Shown piece after piece: positions 15,082 through 32,146 of a stretch of 33,363 bases of DNA (the first letter of the stretch is position 1; each line of letters starts with the position of its first letter). The notes below the pieces were generated by a model, which saw only the letters and a list, made by a program, of their open reading frames with translations, had not been told where the DNA came from and did no database searches. The stretch is from positions 1,246,620 to 1,279,982 of the forward strand of contig CP070653.1 in assembly GCA_020354665.1 (NCBI GenBank). The letters are read 5' to 3'. A program made the translations under genes and the position numbers. This DNA is from Burkholderiales bacterium. GTDB lineage: Bacteria; Pseudomonadota; Gammaproteobacteria; Burkholderiales; Burkholderiaceae_C.

Positions 15082-16071
15082 ATGGAATCGAAGATCGATC
15101 GCCGCAAGCTTCTGATCTCTGGCGCTGCGCTCGCCGCGACGCAGGGCTTCCCTGCCTGGGCGCAGGACAAGCCCACGCTGCGCTTTGCCGCCGTGTTCTC
15201 GGACAAGGACATCCGCGCCGACATGATGCGGATGCTGGCCAAGGACGTCGAGGGCGACTTCAAGATCGAGCCATTTCTCGGCGGGACGCTGTTCAAGCAG
15301 GGCACCGAACTGGTGGCATTGCAGCGCGACAACCTCGAGATGGGCAACGTCGCGCCGCAGGAGATCAGCAAACAGATGCCCTCGTGGTCGGTGCTGACGT
15401 CCGCCTACACCTTCCGTGACGCCAACCACGTGCTCTCGTTCTTCTCGAGCGATCTCGGCGTGCAGATGAAGAAGCAGGCCGAGGACCAGCTCAAGATCAA
15501 GATCCTCGGTCCGACGTTCTACGGCACCCGTCAGGTGGGGCTGCGGATCAAGAAGAAGGTCAACACGCCTGCCGACATGGCGGGGGTCAAGCTGCGCATG
15601 CCGCCGGGCGACGCCTGGCAGCTGTTGGGTCGTTCGCTCGGCGCCAACCCGACGCCGATGGCCTATGCCGAGACCTACACCGGCCTGCAGACCGGGGCCA
15701 TCGATGGCCAGGACAACCCACTGCCGAACGTGCAGAACATGAAGTTCTACGAGGTGATGTCGCAGATCGTGCTGACTTCGCATCTCGTGGCCTTCGACGT
15801 GCTGTCGATGAACCTGAAGTCCTGGGACGCAATGGGCCCGGCCAAGCAGAAGACATTCCAGGCAGCCGTCGACAAGGCCCTTGCGTGGAGCGTGCAGCAG
15901 CACCTGAGCCGCGAGACGGAGCTCGCCGAGGGCTTCAAGAAGCAGGGGCTCGACATCTACGCCCCTGACATCGCCGCGTTCCGCGCTCACGCGCAGAAGG
16001 TCTACCTCGCCTCGGACGAGGCGAAGTCCTGGGCGCCGGGGATCCTGGACAAGATCCTGGCCGTCAAGTAG
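15082..16071 (+). CDS. dctP: TRAP transporter periplasmic substrate-binding protein, DctP family
   Basis: A 329-residue periplasmic binding protein. The N-terminus has a twin-arginine-like export signal (DRRKLLISGAALAA, probable cleavage after AWA at residue 28). The mature part shows DctP-family landmarks: LRFAAVFSDKDIRADMM, FKIEPFLGGTLFKQGTELVALQRDN, RQVGLRIKKKVNTPADMAGVKLRMPPGDAW (the ligand-carboxylate-binding Arg lies in KLRMP) and GAIDGQDNPLPNV. It captures an organic acid for the DctQM permeases downstream. AGGAG sits six bases before ATG. It is the only binding-protein gene for two permease pairs. The ligand cannot be predicted. Confidence 0.93.
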   Translation: MESKIDRRKLLISGAALAATQGFPAWAQDKPTLRFAAVFSDKDIRADMMRMLAKDVEGDFKIEPFLGGTLFKQGTELVALQRDNLEMGNVAPQEISKQMPSWSVLTSAYTFRDANHVLSFFSSDLGVQMKKQAEDQLKIKILGPTFYGTRQVGLRIKKKVNTPADMAGVKLRMPPGDAWQLLGRSLGANPTPMAYAETYTGLQTGAIDGQDNPLPNVQNMKFYEVMSQIVLTSHLVAFDVLSMNLKSWDAMGPAKQKTFQAAVDKALAWSVQQHLSRETELAEGFKKQGLDIYAPDIAAFRAHAQKVYLASDEAKSWAPGILDKILAVK

Positions 16072-16095
16072 GCGCCAAGCTCCACTCGGCGGGAC

Positions 16096-16164
16096 CGGCG
16101 GCAGCCAGGCCCGCCGCCGCAGCCGGGTTGGCATTTTTTACGGCGGCCGTCCGCGCGACGGCCG
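16096..16164 (+). terminator. Paired hairpins with a T6 run between dctP and dctQ
   Basis: CGGCGGC (16096-16102) pairs with GCCGCCG (16113-16119). A T6 run follows at 16134-16139, 14 bases later, and a second strong stem-loop (CGGCCGTC at 16144-16151, GACGGCCG at 16157-16164) comes after it. This resembles a partial terminator or stabilising element that raises binding-protein mRNA relative to permease mRNA. The T-run is too far from the first stem for a textbook intrinsic terminator. Confidence 0.45.
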
Positions 16165-16225
16165 TTCGTCTGCTTAGGATCGCGCGCGGTGTGGCGCCCA
16201 CGTCCGCGGTGGGGGAGGGGGACGT

Positions 16226-16744
16226 ATGCATCCGGCCCTGCGCAAGGTCGTCGACTGGATTCGCACGTGCGCCGAGATCGCCGTCTCGGCTCTGCTGGCG
16301 GTGATGTTCGTCGCCTTCATCGTCCAGATCGTCTTCCGGTACTTCTTCAACTTCCCGGTCGGTTGGTCCTCCGAGCTGTCGGTCATTGCCTGGCTCTACA
16401 TGGTCCTGCTCGGCTCGGCGTTCTGGCTGCGCGAGGGCGAGGAGATCCGCTTTGACCTGCTGGAGGGCGCGAGCCGTCCCGCGGTGCGCAGGGTCATCGG
16501 CGTCCTGGTCGCCGTCGGCGCGGTTGTGCTGTTCGCGATGTCGTTGCCGGCCACGATCAAGTACGTGACCTTCATGAGGGTCGAGAGCTCTTCATACCTC
16601 AAGATCCGGCTCGACTTCCTGTACTCGATCTACGTCGTGTTCGCGGTGGCGCTGATCGTTCGCTACGCGTGGGCGGCGTGGGCGGCACTGCGTGGTGACG
16701 CCGCGCAGGACGTGGATGTCACGCAGAAGGGGTACGGTCTGTGA
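16226..16744 (+). CDS. dctQ: TRAP transporter small permease DctQ (first copy)
   Basis: A 172-residue protein with four membrane helices, the DctQ component of a TRAP importer. Family landmarks: VQIVFRYFFNFPVGWSSELS near residue 30, LGSAFWLREGEEIRFDLL near 60 and the C-terminal helix LYSIYVVFAVALIVRYAW. Its GTGA overlap with dctM (16741-16744) shows coupled translation. It is clearly homologous to the second DctQ at 18223; both share the pattern SLPAT-KYV-FM-VE-SSYL-IRLD-LYSIYVVF, which I take as a tandem duplication. Substrate is set by DctP. Confidence 0.92.
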   Translation: MHPALRKVVDWIRTCAEIAVSALLAVMFVAFIVQIVFRYFFNFPVGWSSELSVIAWLYMVLLGSAFWLREGEEIRFDLLEGASRPAVRRVIGVLVAVGAVVLFAMSLPATIKYVTFMRVESSSYLKIRLDFLYSIYVVFAVALIVRYAWAAWAALRGDAAQDVDVTQKGYGL

Positions 16745-18042
16745 ACCTGACCAGCCCGTTCTCGATCTCGATCTCCACGATCGTCGTGTTCAGCATGCTC
16801 GGGCTGCCGATCGGGCACGCGATGATCGCCGGCTCGGTCCTCTACCTGTACGCCGCGGGCCTGGACATGGGCACCGCCGCCGAGCAACTGCTCAACGGCA
16901 TGTACACGAGCTTCCTGCTCCTCGCGATTCCCCTGTTCATCCTGGCTGCCGAGTTCATGAACGCGGGCAGCATCATGGACAGGCTGCTGAGTTTCTGCAA
17001 CGCCATCGTCGGCCGCTTCCGCGGCGGCCTGGCGCAGGTGAATGTGGTGCAGAGCATCATCTTTGCGAGCATGTCGGGCTCGGCCCTCGCAGACGCTGCC
17101 AGCTCGGGCAAGCTGATGCAGACGCTGATGACCAAGGACGGAAAGTACCCGCCCGCCTACGCGGCCGCGCTGACCACGGTGTCGTCGGTGATCGGGCCGA
17201 TCATGCCGCCGTCGATCCCGCTCGTGCTCTACGCGCTGGTCTCGGACACCTCGGTGGGCTACCTGTTCCTCGCCGGGGTCGTTCCGGGCCTGTTGTTGGG
17301 CATCGTCCAGATGGGGCTGATCGCCTTGACTGCAAAGCGGCGCAACTTCCCGGTCGAGGCGCCGGTGCCGTTGCGCGAGCTACCAGGCGTGACGTGGCGC
17401 GCCGTTCCCGCGCTGATGATGCCGGTGATTCTGCTCGGCTGCCTGTACAGCGGCGTCACCACGCCGACGGAGGCCGCCGCGGTTGCTGCCGCCTATGCGC
17501 TTCTGATCTCGGCGCTGCTGTATCGCAGCGTGCGCCCGACGGACGTGTACCACTCGCTGCGAACGAGCGCGCGCCTCACGGTATCGATCGGCATGCTGAT
17601 CGCTGGCGCGCTCGTCTTCAACTACGTGATCACGGCCGAAAACATCCCGAAGACGCTGAGCGCAATGCTCAAGGCCTACGAGATGACGCCACTCGCGTTT
17701 CTGCTCGCGGTCAACTTCCTGTTGCTGATCCTGGGCTGCTTCCTGGAGGGCACGACGATCATCCTCGTGATCCTGCCCGTGCTGCTGCCCACCGCGCAGT
17801 CGCTCGGCGTCGATCCGGTGCATTTCGGCGTGATGGCCGTGACCAACATCATGCTGGGGCTGGTGACTCCGCCCTATGGCCTGCTCTTGTTCATGATGAC
17901 CAAGATCGCCAACGTGCCGCTGCGCGAAATCGTGCGTGAATCGCTGCCGTTCCTGTACGTGATGTTCGGCGCGCTGGCGCTGATCACGCTGTTCCCCGGG
18001 ATCTCGCTGTTTCTGCCGCGGCTGCTCGGTTACGCCGGTTGA
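16741..18042 (+). CDS. dctM: TRAP transporter large permease DctM (first copy)
   Basis: A 433-residue polytopic permease forming the substrate channel of a sodium-driven TRAP importer. Landmarks: GLPIGHAMIAGSVLYLY in helix 1-2, the FMNAGSIMDRLL segment, ASMSGSALADAASSGKLM near residue 105, GPIMPPSIPLVLYAL near 155, TPTEAAAVAAAYALLI near 240, LEGTTIILVILPVLLPTAQ near 340 and GLVTPPYGLLLFMM near 378. Start is GTG inside the dctQ stop. Over its first 60 residues it is identical to the second DctM at 44 positions by eye, and both are exactly 433 residues. Confidence 0.94.
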   Translation: MNLTSPFSISISTIVVFSMLGLPIGHAMIAGSVLYLYAAGLDMGTAAEQLLNGMYTSFLLLAIPLFILAAEFMNAGSIMDRLLSFCNAIVGRFRGGLAQVNVVQSIIFASMSGSALADAASSGKLMQTLMTKDGKYPPAYAAALTTVSSVIGPIMPPSIPLVLYALVSDTSVGYLFLAGVVPGLLLGIVQMGLIALTAKRRNFPVEAPVPLRELPGVTWRAVPALMMPVILLGCLYSGVTTPTEAAAVAAAYALLISALLYRSVRPTDVYHSLRTSARLTVSIGMLIAGALVFNYVITAENIPKTLSAMLKAYEMTPLAFLLAVNFLLLILGCFLEGTTIILVILPVLLPTAQSLGVDPVHFGVMAVTNIMLGLVTPPYGLLLFMMTKIANVPLREIVRESLPFLYVMFGALALITLFPGISLFLPRLLGYAG

Positions 18043-18153
18043 TCTGGCGTCTTCCGTGTCGCGCGAGGGCCTCCGACGAGGCCAAGGCCTGGCCGCGAGG
18101 TCGCCTGCCGAAGATCCGGGCCGTAAAGTTAAAGTAAACGGGCCGATACGCTT

Positions 18154-18173
18154 CGGACCCCCAGGGTGGTCCG
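18154..18173 (+). repeat. Hairpin between the two dctQM pairs
   Basis: CGGACC pairs with GGTCCG around an 8-base loop. No T-run follows. The 180-base gap also holds an A-rich patch (18123-18139), but I see no -35/-10 pair. It may separate or stabilise the two permease messages. Confidence 0.3.
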
Positions 18174-18222
18174 GCCCCGGCCGCCAAGCCGAGCGGGCAC
18201 GCGTGCGCTTGAGGAACACGAC

Positions 18223-18738
18223 ATGGATTCATTGATTCGCACGGTGGCAGGCTGGGTGCAGCGTCGAGCCGAGAACGTGATTGCCGTCTTGCTCGGCATC
18301 ATGTTCACCGCCTTCGTCACCCAGATCGTCTTCCGCTACTTCCTGAACCTGCCGACCGGCTGGTCCACCGAGACCGTGGTCATCTGCTGGCTGTGGTTGG
18401 TGCTTCTGGGCACGGCCCTGGCCCTGAAGGAGAAGGACGAGATCCGCTTCGACATCCTCACCTCGGTGGCCGGGCCACGCGTTCGACGGGTGATGGCCTT
18501 GATCGTCTCGGTGGCCACCGTCGCGCTGTTCGGCCTGTCGCTGCCCGCTACATACAAGTACGTCGCGTTCATGAAGGTCGAGAAGTCCTCGTACCTCAAC
18601 ATCCGCCTCGACTGGCTGTACTCGATCTACGTGGTGTTCGTACTCGCGATCATCCTGCGCTACCTCTGGTTGCTGTGGGAAGGCCTGCGCGGTGAGCCGC
18701 CGAGCGAGCAGACGATGGACGAGGGCCGGGTGCGATGA
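18223..18738 (+). CDS. dctQ: TRAP transporter small permease DctQ (second copy)
   Basis: A 171-residue, four-helix DctQ protein. GAGGAA at 18211-18216 sets ATG 18223; the open frame back to 18166 has no family similarity. Landmarks match the first copy: TQIVFRYFLNLPTGWSTET, LGTALALKEKDEIRFDIL and YSIYVVFVLAIILRYLW. It overlaps the second dctM by four bases (ATGA). No second dctP precedes it, so it either shares the upstream DctP or uses an unlinked receptor. Confidence 0.92.
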   Translation: MDSLIRTVAGWVQRRAENVIAVLLGIMFTAFVTQIVFRYFLNLPTGWSTETVVICWLWLVLLGTALALKEKDEIRFDILTSVAGPRVRRVMALIVSVATVALFGLSLPATYKYVAFMKVEKSSYLNIRLDWLYSIYVVFVLAIILRYLWLLWEGLRGEPPSEQTMDEGRVR

Positions 18739-20036
18739 GCTTGCCGAGCCCGTTCACCCTTTCGCTGCTGACCATCGTCGTCTTGAGTCTGCTCGGTCTG
18801 CCGATCGGCCTGGCAATGGTCGGCGGGTCGGTGCTCTACCTGTTCGCAGCGGGGCTCGATGTCGGGACGGCGGCCGAACAGATCCTCAACGGCATGATGA
18901 CCAGCTACCTTCTGCTGGCCATTCCGCTGTTCATCCTCGCTGCCGAGTTCATGAACGCCGGCAGCATCATGGACAGGCTGGTGCGGTTCTGCAACGCACT
19001 GGTCGGACGGTTCCGGGGCGGCCTCGCGCTTGTCAACGTTGCGCAGAGCATCGTCTTCGCGAGCATGTCCGGCTCGGCGCTGGCCGATGCGGCCGGCGCC
19101 GGCAAGATCATGCAGAACCTGATGACGCGCGAGGGGAAGTACACGCGCGGGTTCGCCGCCGCGCTGACCGCGGTCTCGGCCACGATCGGCCCGATCCTGC
19201 CGCCGTCGATTCCCCTCGTCGTCTATTCGCTGGTGTCCGACGCATCGGTGGGGTACCTCTTCCTCGCGGGCGTAGTCCCCGGTCTACTGATCGGCGCCGT
19301 ACAGATGGCGCTGATCGTTGCCGTCGGCAAGCGGCGAAAGTTCCCCGTCGAAGCGAAAGTGCCGGTGAGCGAAATACCTCGAGTGACGAGGGAGGCGTTT
19401 CCGGCACTGCTGATGCCGATCATCCTGTTCACCTGCCTTTACAGCGGAATCACCACGCCCACCGAGGCGGCAGCCGTGGCCGCGGCCTACGCGTTGCTGA
19501 TCGCCGGCGGTCTCTATCGCAGCGTGAGTCCGAGCGGCATCTACCGCTCGCTCCTCGGCAGCGCTCGCACGAGCGTGTCGATCGGCATGCTGATCGCGGG
19601 CGCGATGGCCTACAACTACGTCATCACCGTCGAGAACATCCCCAAGACGGTGAGCGCGATCCTCACCGCCACGGATCTGTCGCAGACGGGCTTCCTGATG
19701 CTCGTCAACGTCATCCTGCTGGTGCTCGGTTGCCTGCTCGAGGGCACGACGATCATCCTGGTGATCCTGCCGGTCCTGCTGCCCACGGCCACCGCACTGG
19801 GCATCGACCCGGTGCATTTCGGGGTCATGGCCGTAACGAACATCATGTTCGGCCTGGTGACGCCGCCCTACGGCCTGCTGCTGTTCATGATGACCAAGGT
19901 CGCGAATGTCTCACTGCGGGAGATCACGCGCGAGGTGATGCCCTTCCTCGGCGTCATGTTCATCGCCCTGATGATCATCACCTATGTTCCCGACGCGGTG
20001 TTGTTCCTGCCGCGCTTGTTCGGCTATTCGGGCTGA
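18735..20036 (+). CDS. dctM: TRAP transporter large permease DctM (second copy)
   Basis: A 433-residue DctM channel protein with the same landmarks as the first copy: GLPIGLAMVGGSVLYLF, EFMNAGSIMDRL, SMSGSALADAAGAGKIM, GPILPPSIPLVVYSL, TPTEAAAVAAAYALLI, LEGTTIILVILPVLLPTA and LVTPPYGLLLFMM. Divergence from the first copy is spread along the protein and is mostly conservative, as expected for an old tandem duplication kept under selection, not a recent or decaying copy. It is the last plus-strand gene before a convergent minus-strand pair. Confidence 0.94.
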   Translation: MSLPSPFTLSLLTIVVLSLLGLPIGLAMVGGSVLYLFAAGLDVGTAAEQILNGMMTSYLLLAIPLFILAAEFMNAGSIMDRLVRFCNALVGRFRGGLALVNVAQSIVFASMSGSALADAAGAGKIMQNLMTREGKYTRGFAAALTAVSATIGPILPPSIPLVVYSLVSDASVGYLFLAGVVPGLLIGAVQMALIVAVGKRRKFPVEAKVPVSEIPRVTREAFPALLMPIILFTCLYSGITTPTEAAAVAAAYALLIAGGLYRSVSPSGIYRSLLGSARTSVSIGMLIAGAMAYNYVITVENIPKTVSAILTATDLSQTGFLMLVNVILLVLGCLLEGTTIILVILPVLLPTATALGIDPVHFGVMAVTNIMFGLVTPPYGLLLFMMTKVANVSLREITREVMPFLGVMFIALMIITYVPDAVLFLPRLFGYSG

Positions 20037-20102: not shown

Positions 20103-20780
20103 CTAGGCACCGGGGGAGGTCAAGCTGTACGCCAGCCCGAACACGGCATGATCGACGGCCACGGCACCGTAGCCGCTCATGCGCTGTGCGCCGAGTTCGG
20201 CCTCGGCGAGCGACGCGACGGCGTCCACGTCGTACCCCGTCACCCACAGCGCCGAATGGATCGCGCTGTCGCGACCACGGATCGACTGCTCGTGCGTCAT
20301 GGGCGCTTGCAGAGCATTCTCGAGCCATCGCCAGGCCACCAGGCCGCGCCGGCCGGCCAGCGGTCGCAACGTGTCGACCAGCCGCTCGCGTAGTTGCTCC
20401 GTTCTTCCCAGCGCAGGCGCGAAGGTCACGACGAGGCACGCGGAACCGATGCCCTCGCCGTCACCACCCTTGATCTCGCACAGCGTCCTGCGCATCCCGA
20501 GGTAGTGCAGCATCATCTTCGCCGTCCACGGCGTCGGGTGGTCGAGGCGTTCGCGGTAGGCGGCGCTGTCCAGTACAGCGGGGCTGTCGACCTCGTAGAG
20601 GACGCAATAGCGCGGGCCGGTCGATGGTCGTGTCCAGCGCGTCCCGCGCAGGAATCCGGGAATGGCCAGCCGCTCGGGCATGTGCTCGTGCGTATGCCAG
20701 TCATCATGTTCGGCGACGGCGTCTTCGGCCACGTCGAACAGCAGCAGCATCGTTCCCCGTGCACGCGACAGCCTGCTCAT
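20103..20780 (-). CDS. Conserved protein, probable dimeric alpha/beta-barrel (EthD/antibiotic-monooxygenase-like) fold
   Basis: A 225-residue protein I cannot name. Residues 11-50 (LLLFDVAED, then DWHTHEHMPERLAIPGFLRG) resemble the His/Glu-rich start of ferredoxin-like dimeric alpha/beta-barrel proteins. A second half beginning ACLVVTFAPALGRTEQLRERLVD looks like a diverged repeat of the same strand-helix unit. Such proteins bind or transform small organic molecules or act as accessory subunits. ATG 20780 has GGAG eight bases upstream; GTG 20789 is an alternative. It follows the flavoprotein gene by 75 bases on the same strand and is probably co-transcribed, which suggests a shared substrate. 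Confidence 0.7.
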   Translation of the reverse strand: MSRLSRARGTMLLLFDVAEDAVAEHDDWHTHEHMPERLAIPGFLRGTRWTRPSTGPRYCVLYEVDSPAVLDSAAYRERLDHPTPWTAKMMLHYLGMRRTLCEIKGGDGEGIGSACLVVTFAPALGRTEQLRERLVDTLRPLAGRRGLVAWRWLENALQAPMTHEQSIRGRDSAIHSALWVTGYDVDAVASLAEAELGAQRMSGYGAVAVDHAVFGLAYSLTSPGA

Positions 20781-20855
20781 CTCTTGCACTCCGCTTGCGG
20801 CAGCGACCTGGGCGCAGGCACCACCGATGGCCTCGACACACGCACCGGCGCTGCT

Positions 20856-25816: not shown

Positions 25817-25845
25817 ACGATAGTGGGTCGGCGCCATATCTTCCA
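25817..25845 (-). promoter_or_regulatory. Predicted LysR-activated promoter of the lyase gene
   Basis: On the minus strand TGGAAG (25845-25840) and TATCGT (25822-25817) are separated by 17 bases, giving a start near 25810 and a leader of about 24 bases. The -35 overlaps the operator at 25834-25871. The same arrangement recurs before the aldehyde dehydrogenase operon, which is the main support. Confidence 0.6.
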
Positions 25846-25871
25846 TGCCATGGGCGCAATACAGTAGATTT
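25834..25871 (-). promoter_or_regulatory. LysR operator copy A (lyase/lysR intergenic region)
   Basis: A 38-base element matching 26887-26924 (inverted) at 34 of 38 positions. Its core, at 25840-25856, is a near-palindrome centred on CCATGCCATGG. It lies between divergent lyase and lysR genes and ends ten bases before the lysR ATG, the classic place for an autoregulatory LysR-family site. Confidence 0.7.
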
Positions 25872-25880
25872 CATGGGGCA

Positions 25881-26801
25881 ATGAAAACCCTGCCCCCCAC
25901 GGAACCCGACGACGGCCTGCTCGATGTGCGGTTGCTGCGCATGTTCGAGCTGATCTACGACACGCGCAGCGTCACCCGGACGGCCGAGAAGATGGGGCAG
26001 CAGCAACCGACTGTCAGCATCTGGCTGGGCAAGTTGCGCGCCCAGCTGAACGACCCGCTCTTCGTGCGCACGCCGGCCGGCATGCAGCCGACCCCCCGTG
26101 CCGAAGCGCTGATCACCACGGCGCGCTCGGTGCTGCAGTCGCTGCGCCACTTCGCCAGCGCGAGCGACGAATTCGATCCGGGGTCGTCGACGAGGCAGTT
26201 CCGCATCTGCATGGCCGACTCCAGCCACCTGTGCCTGATGCCGCAACTCCTCGCGCACGTACGCGAGGTCGCGCCCAACGTGAGGCTGGTTGCCGCGCGC
26301 ATCGACGCCCAGACCGGTGACGCGCTGCAATCAGGCCAGGCCGATCTGGCGGTGGGTTTCATCCCGTGGCTGGAGTCGGGGTTCTACCAGCAGATGCTCT
26401 ACCCGGAAGATTGGGTGTGCCTCGTGAACGCCAGCCATCCGCGCATTGGCGATGCGCTGACGCTCGACGCCTACCGCGAGGAAGGACACGTGGCGATCAC
26501 GGCCGGCACCGGCGCGCAAATGCTCGAGGACGCCATGGCGCGCCAGAGGGTGCAGCGCCGCGTCGTGCTCGAACTGCCCGGCTTCCTGGGCCTGTCGGGC
26601 ATCGTTTCGGTCACCGACCTGATCGCGACGCTGCCACGCCGCATCGGCGAGACGCTCGCGCACATGGCCGGGCTACGGGTGATGGACTGCCCGCTCGACG
26701 TGCCCTCGTTCAGCATCAAGCAACACTGGCACGCGCGCTACCATCAGGATCCCGGTAACCAGTGGCTCCGGGGCGTGGCGGCGAAGCTGTTCCTGCTCTG
26801 A
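25881..26801 (+). CDS. LysR family transcriptional regulator
   Basis: A 306-residue LysR-type regulator. The winged helix-turn-helix is at residues about 14-70: LLDVRLLRMFELIYDTRSVT, then RTAEKMGQQQPTVSIWLGKLRAQLNDPLFVRTPAGMQPTPRA. The periplasmic-binding-like effector domain begins near residue 105 (RQFRICMADSSHLCLMPQLL). The N-terminus and the QQPTVSIWLGKLR recognition helix resemble the NodD/NahR/PcpR branch. ATG 25881 is the first codon after the operator; earlier in-frame codons would lie inside it. It probably activates both the divergent lyase gene and the dehydrogenase operon downstream, since the same operator precedes each. The inducer is unknown. Confidence 0.92.
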   Translation: MKTLPPTEPDDGLLDVRLLRMFELIYDTRSVTRTAEKMGQQQPTVSIWLGKLRAQLNDPLFVRTPAGMQPTPRAEALITTARSVLQSLRHFASASDEFDPGSSTRQFRICMADSSHLCLMPQLLAHVREVAPNVRLVAARIDAQTGDALQSGQADLAVGFIPWLESGFYQQMLYPEDWVCLVNASHPRIGDALTLDAYREEGHVAITAGTGAQMLEDAMARQRVQRRVVLELPGFLGLSGIVSVTDLIATLPRRIGETLAHMAGLRVMDCPLDVPSFSIKQHWHARYHQDPGNQWLRGVAAKLFLL

Positions 26802-27172: not shown

Positions 27173-28621
27173 ATGGCTACTGCAACCGAACAGAAGAAGG
27201 GCATCACCCCGGAACAGCAGCAGGAACTCGACGAGGTCTTCGAGCGGGCGCGCAAGGCGCTCGCGATCATCGAGACCTACGACCAGGCACGCGTCGACCG
27301 CTTGTGCCAGGCCGTGGCGTGGGCCGTGGCGAACAAGAGGACCTTCACGCGCCTGGTCGATATGGGGATCCAGGAATCGGGTCTCGGCGACGCTGAAAGC
27401 CGCATGGGCAAGCGAATGAAGATCCGCGGCGTGCTGCGCGACGCGTTGCGCCAGAAGAGCGTCGGGATCATCGAGGAAGTTCCCGAGAAGGGCCTCGTCA
27501 AGTACGGCAAGCCCGCCGGGATCATCGCCTGCATCGTGCCGACGACCAATCCCGACCTGACGCCGGCCGGCAATGCCATCTATGGCATCAAGGCTCGCGA
27601 CGTCGTCATCTTCTCGCCGCACCCGCGCTCCAAGCGCACCTCGTTCGAAACCGTGCGCCTGATGCGCGAGGCGCTTCAGGCCGAGGGCGCGCCGCCCGAC
27701 ATCCTGCAGTGCCTCACGAAAGTCAACATCCCGATGTCGCAGGCGCTGATGGCGCGTGCCGACCTCATCATCGCCACCGGCGGCCAGCCGATGGTGCGCG
27801 CCGCCTACAGCTCGGGCACGCCGGCTTATGGCGTTGGCGCAGGCAACTCGACGATGATCATCGACGAGACCGCCGACGTCGCCGAGGCAGCGCGCAACAC
27901 GCGTGTCTCCAAGACCAGCGACTTCGGCTCGGGCTGTTCGGCCGACGGCAACCTGATCATCGAGGCGTCGATCTTCGACCGCCTGGTGGCGCAGCTGCAG
28001 TCGGAAGGGGGCTACCTCGCGACGCCGCAAGAGAAGGAACTGCTGCGCAAGGCGATGTGGGACGCCGAGCGCCACCGCACCTCGAACACCGTGGCCATCG
28101 CGCCGCAGCAGTTGGCCCAGATCGCCGGCTTCGAGATCCCGGCGGACCGCAAGTTCATCATGGTTCACGGGGACGGCATCGGCAAGGAGCACCACTTCTC
28201 AAGCGAGAAGCTGACGACGCTGCTCGCGCTATACAAGTACAAGGGCTTCGATCAGGCGCTGCAGATGATGCGCGATATCTACGAAGTGGGCGGCAAGGGC
28301 CACTCGTGCGGCATCTACTCGTTCAATCCCGATCACATCAATCGCCTGGCCCTGGCGGCGCCGGTGTCGCGCATCATGGTGCGCCAACCCCAGTCGAAGG
28401 CCAATGCCGGCGCCTTCAACAACGGCATGCCGATGACGTCGAGCCTGGGTTGCGGCACCTGGGGCGGCAACATCATCTCCGAGAACGTTTACCTGAAGCA
28501 CTACATGAATACCACGTGGGTGTCGGTGCCGATCAAGGAGGACAGGCCCTCCGACGAGGAGCTGTTTGGCCCCTTCTACGATCCCGCGCTCGAGAACGGC
28601 GTCGAGACGATCACGACCTGA
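27173..28621 (+). CDS. CoA-acylating aldehyde dehydrogenase (sulfoacetaldehyde dehydrogenase SauS-like)
   Basis: A 482-residue member of the CoA-acylating aldehyde dehydrogenases, which convert an aldehyde plus CoA and NAD(P)+ to an acyl-CoA. Landmarks: DQARVDRLCQAVAWA near residue 37, GIIACIVPTTNPDLTPAGNAI near 116, FSPHPRSKRTS near 147, SGTPAYGVGAGNSTMIID near 214, the catalytic Cys255 in SDFGSGCSADGN, and SKANAGAFNNGMPMTSS with GCGTWGGN near the C-terminus. This pattern resembles SauS more than AdhE or EutE, but no other sulfonate gene (xsc, sauT, sulfite handling) is in the window. AGGAG at 27159-27163 supports the ATG. It leads a four-gene operon with a ThDP enzyme that could supply its aldehyde. 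Confidence 0.88.
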   Translation: MATATEQKKGITPEQQQELDEVFERARKALAIIETYDQARVDRLCQAVAWAVANKRTFTRLVDMGIQESGLGDAESRMGKRMKIRGVLRDALRQKSVGIIEEVPEKGLVKYGKPAGIIACIVPTTNPDLTPAGNAIYGIKARDVVIFSPHPRSKRTSFETVRLMREALQAEGAPPDILQCLTKVNIPMSQALMARADLIIATGGQPMVRAAYSSGTPAYGVGAGNSTMIIDETADVAEAARNTRVSKTSDFGSGCSADGNLIIEASIFDRLVAQLQSEGGYLATPQEKELLRKAMWDAERHRTSNTVAIAPQQLAQIAGFEIPADRKFIMVHGDGIGKEHHFSSEKLTTLLALYKYKGFDQALQMMRDIYEVGGKGHSCGIYSFNPDHINRLALAAPVSRIMVRQPQSKANAGAFNNGMPMTSSLGCGTWGGNIISENVYLKHYMNTTWVSVPIKEDRPSDEELFGPFYDPALENGVETITT

Positions 28622-28714: not shown

Positions 28715-30484
28715 ATGAAGACAGACCTGATCGCCAACCAGCTGGTCAAGTACCTGGAGGGACGCGGCATCCGGCACATCTTCGGCCTGTGCGGTCACAC
28801 CAACATCGCGGTGCTGGCGGCGCTGTCCAAGAGCCGGAAGATCAATTTCATCAATACCCGCCACGAACAGATCGCCGCACACGCCGCCGATGGCTACGCG
28901 CGCGCGACCGGCCGCGCCTCGGTGGTGCTCTCGCATCTGTCGCCGGGGCTGACGAACGCGGCGACGGGGGTGGCCAACGCGGCGCTCGATTCGATCCCGA
29001 TGGTGGTGATTGCGGGTGACGTACCGTCGCACTACTACGGCAAGCACCCGCACCAGGAAGTCAACCTGCACGGCGATGCGCAGCAGTACGAGATCTACCG
29101 GCCGTTCGTCAAGCGGGCCTGGCGTGTCGACTCGCCGCACTTGATGCCCGAGATCATGGAGAAGGCATTCACGCTGGCCGAGAGCGGGCGGCCGGGCCCG
29201 GTGCTGGTCGACGTGCCGATGGATGTCTTTTCGAAGGAGATCGACGTTGCGCTGTGGAAGCGCGCGCTGGCCAACACCAAGGCGCTGCACAAGCCCTCGC
29301 TGGACGAGGCGGTGGCGATGAAAATCATCGACTCGCTGACCGGCGCCAAGTCGCCGGTCCTGTATGTCGGCGGCGGCATCTTGCTGGCCGATGCTGCGGC
29401 GCAGATGCGCGAGCTCGCCGAACACCTGTCGCTACCCGTGGCGCACACGCTGATGGGCAAGGGCGCGCTGCCCGACGACCACCCGCTGATCCTCGGCATG
29501 ACCGGGTTCTGGGGAACCCAGTACATCAACGACAAGACACGCAACGCCGACTGGATCCTGGCGCTGGGCACGCGCTTCTCGGAGGCCGACTGCAGCTCCT
29601 GGGAGGACCAGTACACGTTCCGCATCCCGCCGACGAGGCTGATCCACATCGACATCGACCCGGCGGAGATCGGCCGCAACTATCCCGTCGAGATCGGCGC
29701 GGTCGCCGACCTGAAGGAAGCGCTGCGCGTGCTCAACCGCGTCGCGCGCAAGCTGGTGCCCAAGGGGATCAAGCGCGACAAGCTGGTGGCCGAGATGGCT
29801 GCGAACCGCGCCAAGTTCGCGGCCGGCAACCTGAAGGCGCAGCGCAGCGACCAGTGGCCGATGCGGCCCGAGCGCATCCTGGCTGACCTGCGGGCCGTGC
29901 TGCCCCGCGACGCGCTGATCTGCACCGACGTCGGCTGGAACAAGAACGGCGTCGGGCAGCAGTTCCCCATTTACACGCCCGGCACGATCTACACACCCGG
30001 TGGCTACGCGACGATGGGCTTCGGTTCACCGGCGGCGCTGGGGGTCAAGATCGCGCGGCCCGACCGCGTCGTTGTCGCGCTCATCGGCGATGGCGGCTTC
30101 GGACAGAACCCGGCTGCGCTGGCTACCGCGCACGAGCAGGACATTGGCGTCATCTGGGTGGTGATGAACAACCGCGCTTTCGGCACGATCGCCGGACTGG
30201 AGTCGGCGCACTTCGGCACGACCTTCGGTACAGTGTTCGAGAAGGGCGGCAAGCCGTATTCGCCGGACTTCGCGGCCGTCGCGCGGGCTTACGGCGTCGA
30301 TGGCGTGAAGATCGACACCGCGGCCGCGTTCAAGCCTGCGCTCGAGCAGGCCATCCAGGCGGGCCGACCCTGCGTGATCGACGTCAACATGAAGAACGAG
30401 CCGGTGCCCACCGCGGGCCACTGGAACATCATGGACATCTACTCGCCGGGCAAGAAAGTTCACCACGTCGCCACCGGCAACTGA
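28715..30484 (+). CDS. Thiamine-diphosphate-dependent enzyme (acetolactate synthase-like decarboxylase/carboligase)
   Basis: A 589-residue ThDP enzyme of the acetolactate synthase/benzoylformate decarboxylase superfamily. The PYR domain has GIRHIFGLCGHTN near residue 18, the activating Glu51 in TRHEQIAAHAADGYARATG, and SHLSPGLTNAATGVANA. A central domain follows (LYVGGGILLADAAAQ near 212). The PP domain shows YATMGFGSPAALG and the cofactor motif GDG at 458-460 with NN at 485-486. Gly-rich loop residues differ from true acetolactate synthase (GLCG for GxPG), so branched-chain amino acid synthesis is unlikely. A 2-keto acid decarboxylase feeding the upstream acylating dehydrogenase, or a diketone hydrolase as in IolD or cyclohexane-1,2-dione hydrolase, are both possible. 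Confidence 0.88.
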   Translation: MKTDLIANQLVKYLEGRGIRHIFGLCGHTNIAVLAALSKSRKINFINTRHEQIAAHAADGYARATGRASVVLSHLSPGLTNAATGVANAALDSIPMVVIAGDVPSHYYGKHPHQEVNLHGDAQQYEIYRPFVKRAWRVDSPHLMPEIMEKAFTLAESGRPGPVLVDVPMDVFSKEIDVALWKRALANTKALHKPSLDEAVAMKIIDSLTGAKSPVLYVGGGILLADAAAQMRELAEHLSLPVAHTLMGKGALPDDHPLILGMTGFWGTQYINDKTRNADWILALGTRFSEADCSSWEDQYTFRIPPTRLIHIDIDPAEIGRNYPVEIGAVADLKEALRVLNRVARKLVPKGIKRDKLVAEMAANRAKFAAGNLKAQRSDQWPMRPERILADLRAVLPRDALICTDVGWNKNGVGQQFPIYTPGTIYTPGGYATMGFGSPAALGVKIARPDRVVVALIGDGGFGQNPAALATAHEQDIGVIWVVMNNRAFGTIAGLESAHFGTTFGTVFEKGGKPYSPDFAAVARAYGVDGVKIDTAAAFKPALEQAIQAGRPCVIDVNMKNEPVPTAGHWNIMDIYSPGKKVHHVATGN

Positions 30485-30498
30485 CGTAGGGGGTGAGC

Positions 30499-31317
30499 AT
30501 GAAGCAGGAGTTTTCGCTGGCCCACCTGACGGTGCTGGGCTGCGCGCCGCCCGAAATGACTTACATCGCTGCGCGTGCGGGTTACGACTACGTCAGCATC
30601 CGGCCGATCTACATGGGACTGCCCGGCGAGCCCAACTACGCGCTCGCCGAAAACAAGGAACTGCTGCGGCAGACGAAGTCGGCGCTGAAGTCCACCGGCG
30701 TGCGCATCCATGACATCGAGCTGGCACGCATCTTCGACGGCGTGGACGTCAGGACGTACCTCCCGGCGATGGAGGTGTCGGCCGAGCTCGGCGCCAAGGC
30801 GGTGCTGTCGTCGATCTGGGGCGGTGAGCGCGAGTACTACATCGAAAAGTTCGCCGAGTTGTGCGATCTGGCACGGCCCTTGGGTTTGACCGTCGACTTG
30901 GAATACGTGCCGATCGCGGCGGTACGCGATCTGGCCGGTGCCGTCGACGTGCTGCGCACGATCGACCGTCCCAACGCGGGTCTGATGATCGACATGCACC
31001 ATATCCACCGGGCGCGCGACAACCCGGCTGATCTCGATGCGTTGCCGCGCCAGTGGTTTCACTTCGCGCACCTGTGCGACGCTCCAGCCGAGATCCCGAC
31101 GGAAAGACAGGAGATGATCCGCATCATGCGCGAGGCGCGGCTGTACGTCGGCGAGGGTGGTATCGACATCGCAGCGATCCTGGCTCACATCCCCCCGTGT
31201 GTCTATTCGATCGAGTTGCCCAACCGGCTGCGGCACGAGGAAATGGGCTATGCGGAACACGCAACGCGATGCCTCGAGACGCTGAAGGCCTACCTGGCGA
31301 GTCAGGGCCGCCCCTGA
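30499..31317 (+). CDS. Sugar phosphate isomerase/epimerase family TIM barrel (second)
   Basis: A 272-residue xylose-isomerase-like TIM barrel. It opens FSLAHLTVLGCAPPEMTYIAARAGYDYVSIRPIY; the presumed metal ligands are Glu in VDLEYVPI, Asp and His in LMIDMHHIHRA, His in WFHFAHLCDAP and Glu in YSIELPN, so the catalytic set looks complete. The ERQEMIRIMREARLYVGEGGIDIAAIL segment is typical of this subfamily. ATG 30499 follows a GGGGG tract by five bases; GTG 30493 is an alternative. It lies 14 bases after the ThDP gene and 43 before the dehydroquinase-like gene. Isomerase, epimerase or dehydratase activity on a polyhydroxy or keto acid is likely, but the substrate is unknown. Confidence 0.88.
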   Translation: MKQEFSLAHLTVLGCAPPEMTYIAARAGYDYVSIRPIYMGLPGEPNYALAENKELLRQTKSALKSTGVRIHDIELARIFDGVDVRTYLPAMEVSAELGAKAVLSSIWGGEREYYIEKFAELCDLARPLGLTVDLEYVPIAAVRDLAGAVDVLRTIDRPNAGLMIDMHHIHRARDNPADLDALPRQWFHFAHLCDAPAEIPTERQEMIRIMREARLYVGEGGIDIAAILAHIPPCVYSIELPNRLRHEEMGYAEHATRCLETLKAYLASQGRP

Positions 31318-31360: not shown

Positions 31361-32146
31361 ATGAAACATCTTCTGGTGCTTGATTCGCGCGGCAGGAAGC
31401 CTGGCGGTGAAACGCCGCTCGTTTGCACGCCCCTGGTGGGCCGGACGCGCGAGCGCGTTCTGGCCGAAGCGGCCCACATCCTGCCCAAGTCGCCCGACCT
31501 GCTCGAGTGGCGCGTCGACCATTTCGGTGCGATCGCAGACACCGCGGCGGTGATCGAGACGCTGCGCGAATTGCGCCGCGCTGCGGGCCGGCTGCCGATC
31601 ATCTTCACGTGCCGTGCCAAGGAAGGCGGCGGGCATCGCGTTCCGATCGGCGCGAAGGAGGTCGTCGCGCTGCACGAGGCGGTGGCTGCGACGCGTATGG
31701 TCGACTTCATCGACTTCGAGATCGACAACGACGCCGAGCTCGTGCGGCACGTCCGGCAGAGCACGCAGGCGCAGGAAGTGCGGCTGATCCTCTCGTACCA
31801 CAACCACAGCTACACGCCTGGCCACGAATTCCTCGTCGACCGGTTCCTCGAGGCGGAGCGACTGGGTGCCGACGTCGCGATGGTGCAGGTCAAGCCGCGC
31901 GAGCGTGCCGACGTGCTGCGCCTGCTGGCGGCGACGGCCGAGGCCGATACGAAGGTGCGCATTCCGCTGATCAGCATGTCGATCGGGCCGCTCGGCTCGG
32001 TTTCGCGCATCGTCGGCGGCCTGTTCGGTTCGAGTCTGTCGTTTGCCGTTGGCGAGAAGGCCTCGGCCCCAGGCCAGATCCCGATCGACGACCTCGTCAC
32101 CGCATTCGACATCATCCGGCGCGCCCGCGGCGGCGAGATGCTCTGA
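31361..32146 (+). CDS. Type I 3-dehydroquinate dehydratase-like protein lacking the Schiff-base lysine
   Basis: A 261-residue AroD-family TIM barrel. Most active-site residues of type I dehydroquinase are present: Glu49 and Arg51 in LEWRVDHF, Arg85 and Glu88 in CRAKEGG, His147 in SYHN, Arg216 in VSR and Ser235/Gln239 in ASAPGQ. The residue aligned with the imine-forming Lys170 of the enteric enzyme (GADIPKIAVMP) is Met174 in GADVAMVQVKP, and a Lys appears four residues later (Lys178). On the same strand face this Lys could point into the barrel. The protein therefore either uses a displaced lysine or does different chemistry. It ends a catabolic operon, which also argues against a role in aromatic amino acid synthesis. 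AGTACGAGGC before the ATG provides the ribosome-binding site. Confidence 0.85.
   Translation: MKHLLVLDSRGRKPGGETPLVCTPLVGRTRERVLAEAAHILPKSPDLLEWRVDHFGAIADTAAVIETLRELRRAAGRLPIIFTCRAKEGGGHRVPIGAKEVVALHEAVAATRMVDFIDFEIDNDAELVRHVRQSTQAQEVRLILSYHNHSYTPGHEFLVDRFLEAERLGADVAMVQVKPRERADVLRLLAATAEADTKVRIPLISMSIGPLGSVSRIVGGLFGSSLSFAVGEKASAPGQIPIDDLVTAFDIIRRARGGEML

Follow-up and report, generated by a model that had tools for sequence, protein, structure and literature searches.

Type I dehydroquinases (AroD) dehydrate 3-dehydroquinate through a Schiff base on a lysine, Lys170 in the numbering of the E. coli enzyme. Mutants of K170 lose activity, and mutants of Glu86 are partly active. For pocket residues other than S21, E46, R48, R82, R213 and Q236, the roles given below are those that we take them to have. 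These six residues are listed as ligand contacts in PMC9902378, and the same source gives the roles of Lys170 (S. typhi K170) and His143. Glu86 and His143 form a relay, as stated in PMC11796326.

Changes at these residues are known from an engineered and from a natural protein. In K170M Salmonella AroD the imine lysine is replaced by Met; as far as their titles are displayed, entry 3nnt is described as a non-covalent complex and entry 4iuo as a complex. According to PMC9074039, the DHQase domain of Candida albicans Aro1 (7u5s, 7u5u, 7tbv) has the type I fold with lost catalytic residues, is inactive by active-site substitutions, including His to Gln, and belongs to a five-domain protein; an active type II enzyme compensates for it. 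The same source reports that, of seven Candida sequences, the His is missing from five and the Lys is altered as well in three, and that the affected species carry a type II enzyme. Our limited literature search, which does not prove absence, found no paper on K170M and apparently nothing on dehydroquinate dehydratase as a pseudoenzyme.

Here we describe an AroD homologue in which, as in K170M Salmonella AroD, Met stands at the imine Lys position. In contrast to that laboratory mutant with a single change, the protein is natural and carries five further changes. Compared with AroD of E. coli and Salmonella (PF01487), the predicted fold, the catalytic His and the residues that bind the carboxylate and hydroxyl groups are the same, whereas the imine Lys is Met, the triad Glu is Gly, and F145H, A172Q, M174K and M205I are present. 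The protein shares with the Aro1 domain a type I fold with lost catalytic residues. Unlike that domain, it keeps the His, stands alone and shows a concentration of polar replacements, and its assembly yielded only a truncated AroQ and no intact type II enzyme.

The gene and its neighbourhood

We analysed a stretch of 33,363 nucleotides (G000:C1:1246620-1279982), referred to as the window, and the AroD homologue encoded there as the window protein. The gene is the last of a same-strand run with the following features:

25845 to 26801, + strand: LysR-type regulator upstream of the operon (profile matches)
27173 to 28621, + strand: acylating aldehyde dehydrogenase, nearest SauS (NF047625, 469.5 bits, below the cut-off of 600; GSGCSAD motif)
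28715 to 30484, + strand: ThDP-dependent enzyme of acetolactate-synthase type (RHEQ and GDG...NN motifs present)
30493 to 31317, + strand: xylose-isomerase-like TIM barrel (PF01261)
31361 to 32146, + strand: AroD homologue (type I dehydroquinase) with an apparently rewired active site, 261 aa (PF01487, TIGR01093, fold matches)

The gaps between the aldehyde dehydrogenase, the ThDP enzyme, the TIM barrel and the AroD homologue were 93, 8 and 43 bp, respectively, and a trehalose-phosphatase gene followed 249 bp after the AroD homologue. With its ThDP enzyme and acylating aldehyde dehydrogenase, the operon looks catabolic.

The frame of the AroD homologue started with ATG, ended with TGA and contained no internal stops. 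A stretch containing GGAG was present upstream of the start codon. The G+C content by codon position was 0.718/0.454/0.855, and the neighbouring genes were alike in this respect. The protein belongs to the type I dehydroquinase family by PF01487 (199.4 bits, cut-off 22.2), and it also scored above the curated cut-off of the aroD equivalog model TIGR01093 (181.2 bits, cut-off 139.3). Since TIGR01093 passes a sequence without the imine Lys, the aroD name taken from this model is unsafe for 31361-32146. A phmmer comparison with solved structures gave 22 distinct sequences with E up to 0.01, all named dehydroquinase or dehydroquinase-containing enzyme. The best match was 2yr1 of Geobacillus kaustophilus (E 1.8e-60), the nearest solved structure by sequence, with 44% identity over 247 alignment columns.

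Elsewhere in the window we noted TRAP transporter genes at 15082-20036, with one solute-binding frame and two large-permease-like frames close together (a candidate at 16741-18042 and one at 18735-20036). A frame of 228 residues at 20103-20789 (- strand) had no Pfam match and lies beside an old-yellow-enzyme gene, which is related to mycofactocin FadH/OYE 2 at a score below the cut-off.

Residues at the active site

We prepared two MAFFT alignments of the window protein with its relatives. The first one left out L001 (the window protein itself), L016 and L035 (partial or poor) and L036, which was without a tblastn hit; two of its rows, L010 and L011, were identical. The second one, also used for the tree, further left out L010 and two fragments (L002 and L034), and AroD of Azoarcus and of E. 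coli were added to it. The rows, picked by similarity to the window protein, do not sample the family at random. The positions discussed below are:

31625 to 31627, + strand: GGC codon of Gly89, at the position of catalytic Glu86; Glu88 is one codon upstream
31799 to 31807, + strand: CAC AAC CAC, His147-Asn148-His149; His147 is the catalytic His, which is kept
31880 to 31882, + strand: ATG codon of Met174, at the Schiff-base Lys (E. coli Lys170) by phmmer and MAFFT alignments
31886 to 31888, + strand: CAG codon of Gln176, at E. coli Ala172 (Ala in 30 of 30 relatives)
31892 to 31894, + strand: AAG codon of Lys178, at the position of E. coli Met174 by alignment
31982 to 31984, + strand: ATC codon of Ile208, aligned with E. 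coli Met205 (all 30 relatives have Met)

The Schiff-base column contained Lys in all other rows of both alignments (31/31 in the first, 30/30 in the second) and Met174 in the window protein, which thus has no Lys at the Lys170 position of EC 4.2.1.10. Four phmmer alignments were printed; in three of them Met174 was placed over the Schiff-base Lys, and the fourth was with 3nnt, titled 'K170M Mutant', which has Met itself. In the column of Lys178 the other rows had Met (29/30) or Ile (1/30). We also considered a realignment that would put Lys178 at the imine column. It needs a four-residue shift against well-conserved flanks, and phmmer and MAFFT agree against it.

At the Glu86 column Gly89 of the window protein stood against Glu in 29 and Asp in one of the 30 other rows, so that the triad Glu is absent from this column. 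His149 replaces a Phe (E. coli Phe145) that all 30 relatives share. The catalytic His143 is present as His147, and the binding positions Glu46, Arg48, Arg82, Arg213, Ser232 and Gln236 were all identical in the window protein.

Further, we counted the near-invariant columns, defined by an identity of 96% or more in the other rows. There were 36 of them, one being the start Met, which is fixed by the chosen translation. The window protein broke six (E86G, F145H, K170M, A172Q, M174K and M205I in E. coli numbering), and three of these substitutions changed a hydrophobic residue to a polar one (F to H, A to Q, M to K). The other 30 columns were kept, the start Met included, among them the equivalents of Glu46, Arg48, Arg82, Asp114, His143, Arg213, Phe225, Ser232 and Gln236. 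When the remaining 30 rows were treated in the same leave-one-out manner, two rows broke three columns, one broke two, five broke one and twenty-two broke none; the next worst rows thus had 3/37 and 3/36 columns broken.

The original prediction, made from the letters and a list of open reading frames, had reported Met174 at the catalytic Lys, Lys178 four residues on, and a sound frame with clear ATG and AAG codons. All of this was borne out by the intact frame, the codon reading and the alignment columns, and the refutation that it named, a better alignment with a Lys at the imine position, was looked for and not found. It had also stated that all other active-site residues align. This holds for Glu49, Arg51, Arg85, His147, Arg216, Ser235 and Gln239, but not for Glu88, which lies one residue before the Glu86 column. 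The changes of F145 to His149, A172 to Gln176 and M205 to Ile208 were absent from it. The core observation therefore holds, one residue was assigned wrongly, and the actual pattern is more marked than first noted.

An AlphaFold2 model built with a 7-row alignment (mean pLDDT 88.0, pTM 0.87) had the dehydroquinase barrel. Its best matches were type I dehydroquinases, with 4h3d at Z 38.0 and rmsd 1.4 over 253 residues; 2yr1 gave Z 37.7 and TM 0.91. The loop of Glu88 and Gly89 was less certain (block mean pLDDT 74 and 78). Model strand 172-177 holds Met174 and Gln176, and Lys178 comes directly after it. By strand parity, residues 174, 176 and 178 should face the same side, and Phe145, Ala172 and Met174 of the E. 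coli enzyme would line the pocket, as parity together with conservation suggests.

In the tree the window protein fell into an unresolved group of 17 rows (support 100/99) with an end branch of 0.91. Longer end branches were found for L020 (1.29), L012 (1.15), L022 (1.03) and L021 (0.98), which broke 0, 2, 0 and 0 near-invariant columns, respectively. Since longer-branched rows break few columns, divergence alone does not account for the six breaks. The changes are concentrated at catalytic positions and their same-strand neighbours and do not follow from divergence in general.

Relatives, related clusters and the rest of the assembly

No clade with Met174/Lys178 was found in the searched genomes, plasmids, phage records or viral contigs. 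A match to the window protein was present in 14 of 300 genomes of the order, 14 of 399 of the family and 1 of 1 of the genus, in 8 of 399 genomes of relatives at 1e-50 and in 1 of 369 of the class at 1e-20; these draws overlap, and the source genome (G000) is counted each time. With only these 14 of 399 family genomes matching, some of them weakly, type I dehydroquinases are uncommon around the source organism. Among 125 genomes of the phylum scanned with Pfam, two had the family, one of them being the source genome. Six exact peptides of the window protein retrieved 6 relatives from a collection of 84,980 species, all with Lys; such a scan is blind to diverged relatives that have none of the six peptides. 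The plasmid matches (64 records) and phage-record matches (22) were all below 60% identity, and in these two sets the residues were read only for Azoarcus KH32C and one E. coli AroD. Viral contigs searched with the window protein gave no match. Four Listeria phage records of 2.9 to 30 kb (OR848245.1, OR846739.1, OR848980.1 and OR846753.1) carry an AroD gene that may be host DNA; its identity to the window protein is 35-36%.

Clusters similar to the operon were found in Azoarcus KH32C (NC_020548.1:600539-608904, L044) and in genome G598 (G598:C36, L047). In Azoarcus a ThDP enzyme 72.5% identical to that of the window adjoins shikimate dehydrogenase and a Lys-bearing AroD. This cluster also has a class III CoA transferase and a citryl-CoA lyase, and nothing matching the window's acylating aldehyde dehydrogenase was detected in this stretch. 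In G598 the aldehyde dehydrogenase (82.9%), the ThDP enzyme (70.5%) and the TIM barrel (64.9%) all resemble the window proteins, and CoA transferase, citryl-CoA lyase, shikimate dehydrogenase and AroD with Lys are present as well. The citryl-CoA lyase of both clusters is of the citrate-synthase type.

The AroDs of these two clusters keep both the Lys and the Glu, whereas the window protein keeps neither at those columns. It was 43.0 and 46.1% identical to them, and they were 56.6% identical to each other. In three-way comparison the window AroD homologue had 55 unique changes against 28 and 20. The window ThDP enzyme was also the most changed of its trio (88 against 25 and 37), and faster change is thus not unique to the AroD homologue.

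CoA transferase and citryl-CoA lyase also occurred in four further genomes with the ThDP enzyme (G408, G465, G492 and G677) and in records of Streptomyces and Nonomuraea (with a 53-55% ThDP relative); the stretches examined there showed no AroD. Since AroD is missing from several related stretches, it is an occasional and not a constant partner of the ThDP cluster. A cluster of ThDP enzyme, CoA transferase, citryl-CoA lyase, shikimate dehydrogenase and AroD may represent an undescribed route for quinate- or shikimate-like acids. It is possible that shikimate dehydrogenase, dehydroquinase, the ThDP enzyme, the acylating dehydrogenase, CoA transferase and citryl-CoA lyase would together open the ring of a quinate-type acid and lead to a citrate-like CoA ester. 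A limited literature search, which is no proof of absence, found nothing on quinate or dehydroquinate dehydratase with citryl-CoA lyase, and a similarly limited one apparently nothing on ring cleavage with ThDP and quinate.

A TauE/SafE sulfite-exporter gene (NC_020548.1:600539-601288) lies beside the Azoarcus AroD, and the closest relative of the window aldehyde dehydrogenase is, below the cut-off, sulfoacetaldehyde dehydrogenase SauS. Both observations make a sulfonate link for these clusters possible.

We also looked for other dehydroquinases in the assembly, which is 94.5% complete and gapped and is the one genome of the genus searched. An AroQ (type II) match at C1:144319-144570 covered profile positions 54-136 of 138 (81.4 bits). 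The missing N-terminal part was not seen in the three forward frames of the preceding DNA, read by eye; therefore this AroQ is truncated in the assembly. A second AroD piece at C1:133376-133723 keeps the Lys and begins just after a 100-N gap. These were the only other matches to the two families in the assembly, so that outside the window neither type of dehydroquinase was found intact. The N-terminal domain of shikimate dehydrogenase gave three matches.

These pieces lie in what looks like a broken second Azoarcus-like cluster (L054:10278-12248, that is G000:C1:133277-135247, and L055:1320-1571, that is G000:C1:144319-144570). Its CoA transferase has no match to residues 179-372, its citryl-CoA lyase lacks residues 67-210 and its ThDP enzyme comprises only residues 3-77, in addition to the AroD piece after the N gap and the AroQ without N-terminal part. 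The cause is either decay or misassembly, which look alike here.

Possible roles of the window protein

Loss of the ordinary type I chemistry is well supported by the sequence. It is probably no longer a 3-dehydroquinate dehydratase and would have a new or a non-catalytic job beside a breakdown pathway. We favoured, in this order, a new activity, a binder without activity, a relocated imine lysine and an error.

The reading that we tentatively place first is that 31361-32146 encodes a rewired type I dehydroquinase paralogue that would have given up the normal imine reaction for a different role, on a quinate-like acid. It has replaced the imine Lys, the triad Glu and four more near-invariant residues, and it retains the predicted fold, the residues binding the ring acid and the catalytic His. 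The usual dehydration of 3-dehydroquinate by way of a Schiff base would then not run. The protein would still bind a quinate- or dehydroshikimate-like ring acid made by, or feeding, the neighbouring operon, and the new polar set of His147, His149, Gln176 and Lys178 may act on it. Because the changes fall on catalytic or nearby near-invariant sites and the rest of the framework is kept, neofunctionalisation fits better than decay. The original prediction had likewise suggested a neofunctionalised enzyme working on a catabolic intermediate. The apparent loss of chemistry, the location of the changes, the kept framework and the catabolic-looking operon speak for it, but the AroDs of the two related clusters keep the Lys, and the role may instead be non-catalytic. 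Other points against it are that the searches gave no second sequence with these changes, that the rest of the assembly yielded no intact enzyme as a spare for the normal reaction, and that the ThDP enzyme of the window has changed fast as well.

A pseudoenzyme without catalysis, retained because its fold or its ligand binding is of use, for example as a metabolite sensor or partner subunit, or else a protein in slow decay, comes second and is a real possibility. The lost Lys and the Gly at the Glu86 position agree with it, and the inactive Aro1 domain offers a precedent, but this parallel is weak because the AroQ of the present assembly is N-terminally truncated. The fungal quinate repressor descends from AROM. 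According to PMC12610400, a fungal quinate repressor is thought to respond to pathway compounds, which is a parallel for a sensor. However, none of the remaining 30 near-invariant positions has changed, and the replacements bring in polar groups close together, while changes from simple decay should be scattered.

It is improbable that the protein still works as a dehydroquinate dehydratase, or as a related lyase, by means of an imine Lys that moved from 174 to 178 on the same strand. Lys and Met are indeed swapped, and Lys178 comes just after model strand 172-177 with the parity of residue 174, but Lys178 lies four residues beyond the usual site, and the Glu86 position has been lost to Gly as well. 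An engineered move of the lysine has reportedly been made in KDPG aldolase. According to PMC3962226, the strand that bears the Lys in transaldolases is not the one that bears it in related class I aldolases. As the rest of the assembly yielded no intact dehydroquinase, the cell may need the window protein; however, gaps in the assembly may hide a normal enzyme, and the AroDs of related clusters keep the usual Lys.

A sequence or assembly error concealing a gene with a normal active site is very hard to credit: the scaffold does have 100-N gaps (one of them directly adjoining the end of the window), another cluster contains several truncated genes and a single assembly is behind the codons, but the window contains no N and the six separate amino-acid changes lie in one intact frame, where Ala to Gln and Phe to His need two base changes each.

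A more far-reaching reading is a change of mechanistic class within the type I fold, which we consider rather unlikely. The imine Lys would have been discarded and the pocket rebuilt, either with His147-x-His149 and an acid on a metal or with Lys178 as a relocated nucleophile, and the substrate would be a ring-acid intermediate in catabolism by a ThDP/acyl-CoA pathway. Besides His147-x-His149, Asp118 and Glu49 are seen in the sequence; these residues are candidates for a metal site such as metal-dependent (class II) TIM-barrel lyases have at the barrel mouth, made of two His and an acid. By analogy with a Salmonella AroD entry with nickel (4gfs, as far as its title is displayed), a related pocket may be able to hold metal.

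In summary, the window protein passes a curated aroD model without the residue that defines the chemistry, and databases will probably misname it for this reason. The name 3-dehydroquinate dehydratase is unsuitable for it on sequence alone. If active, it would be a natural example of altered chemistry in an imine enzyme whose ligand site stays.
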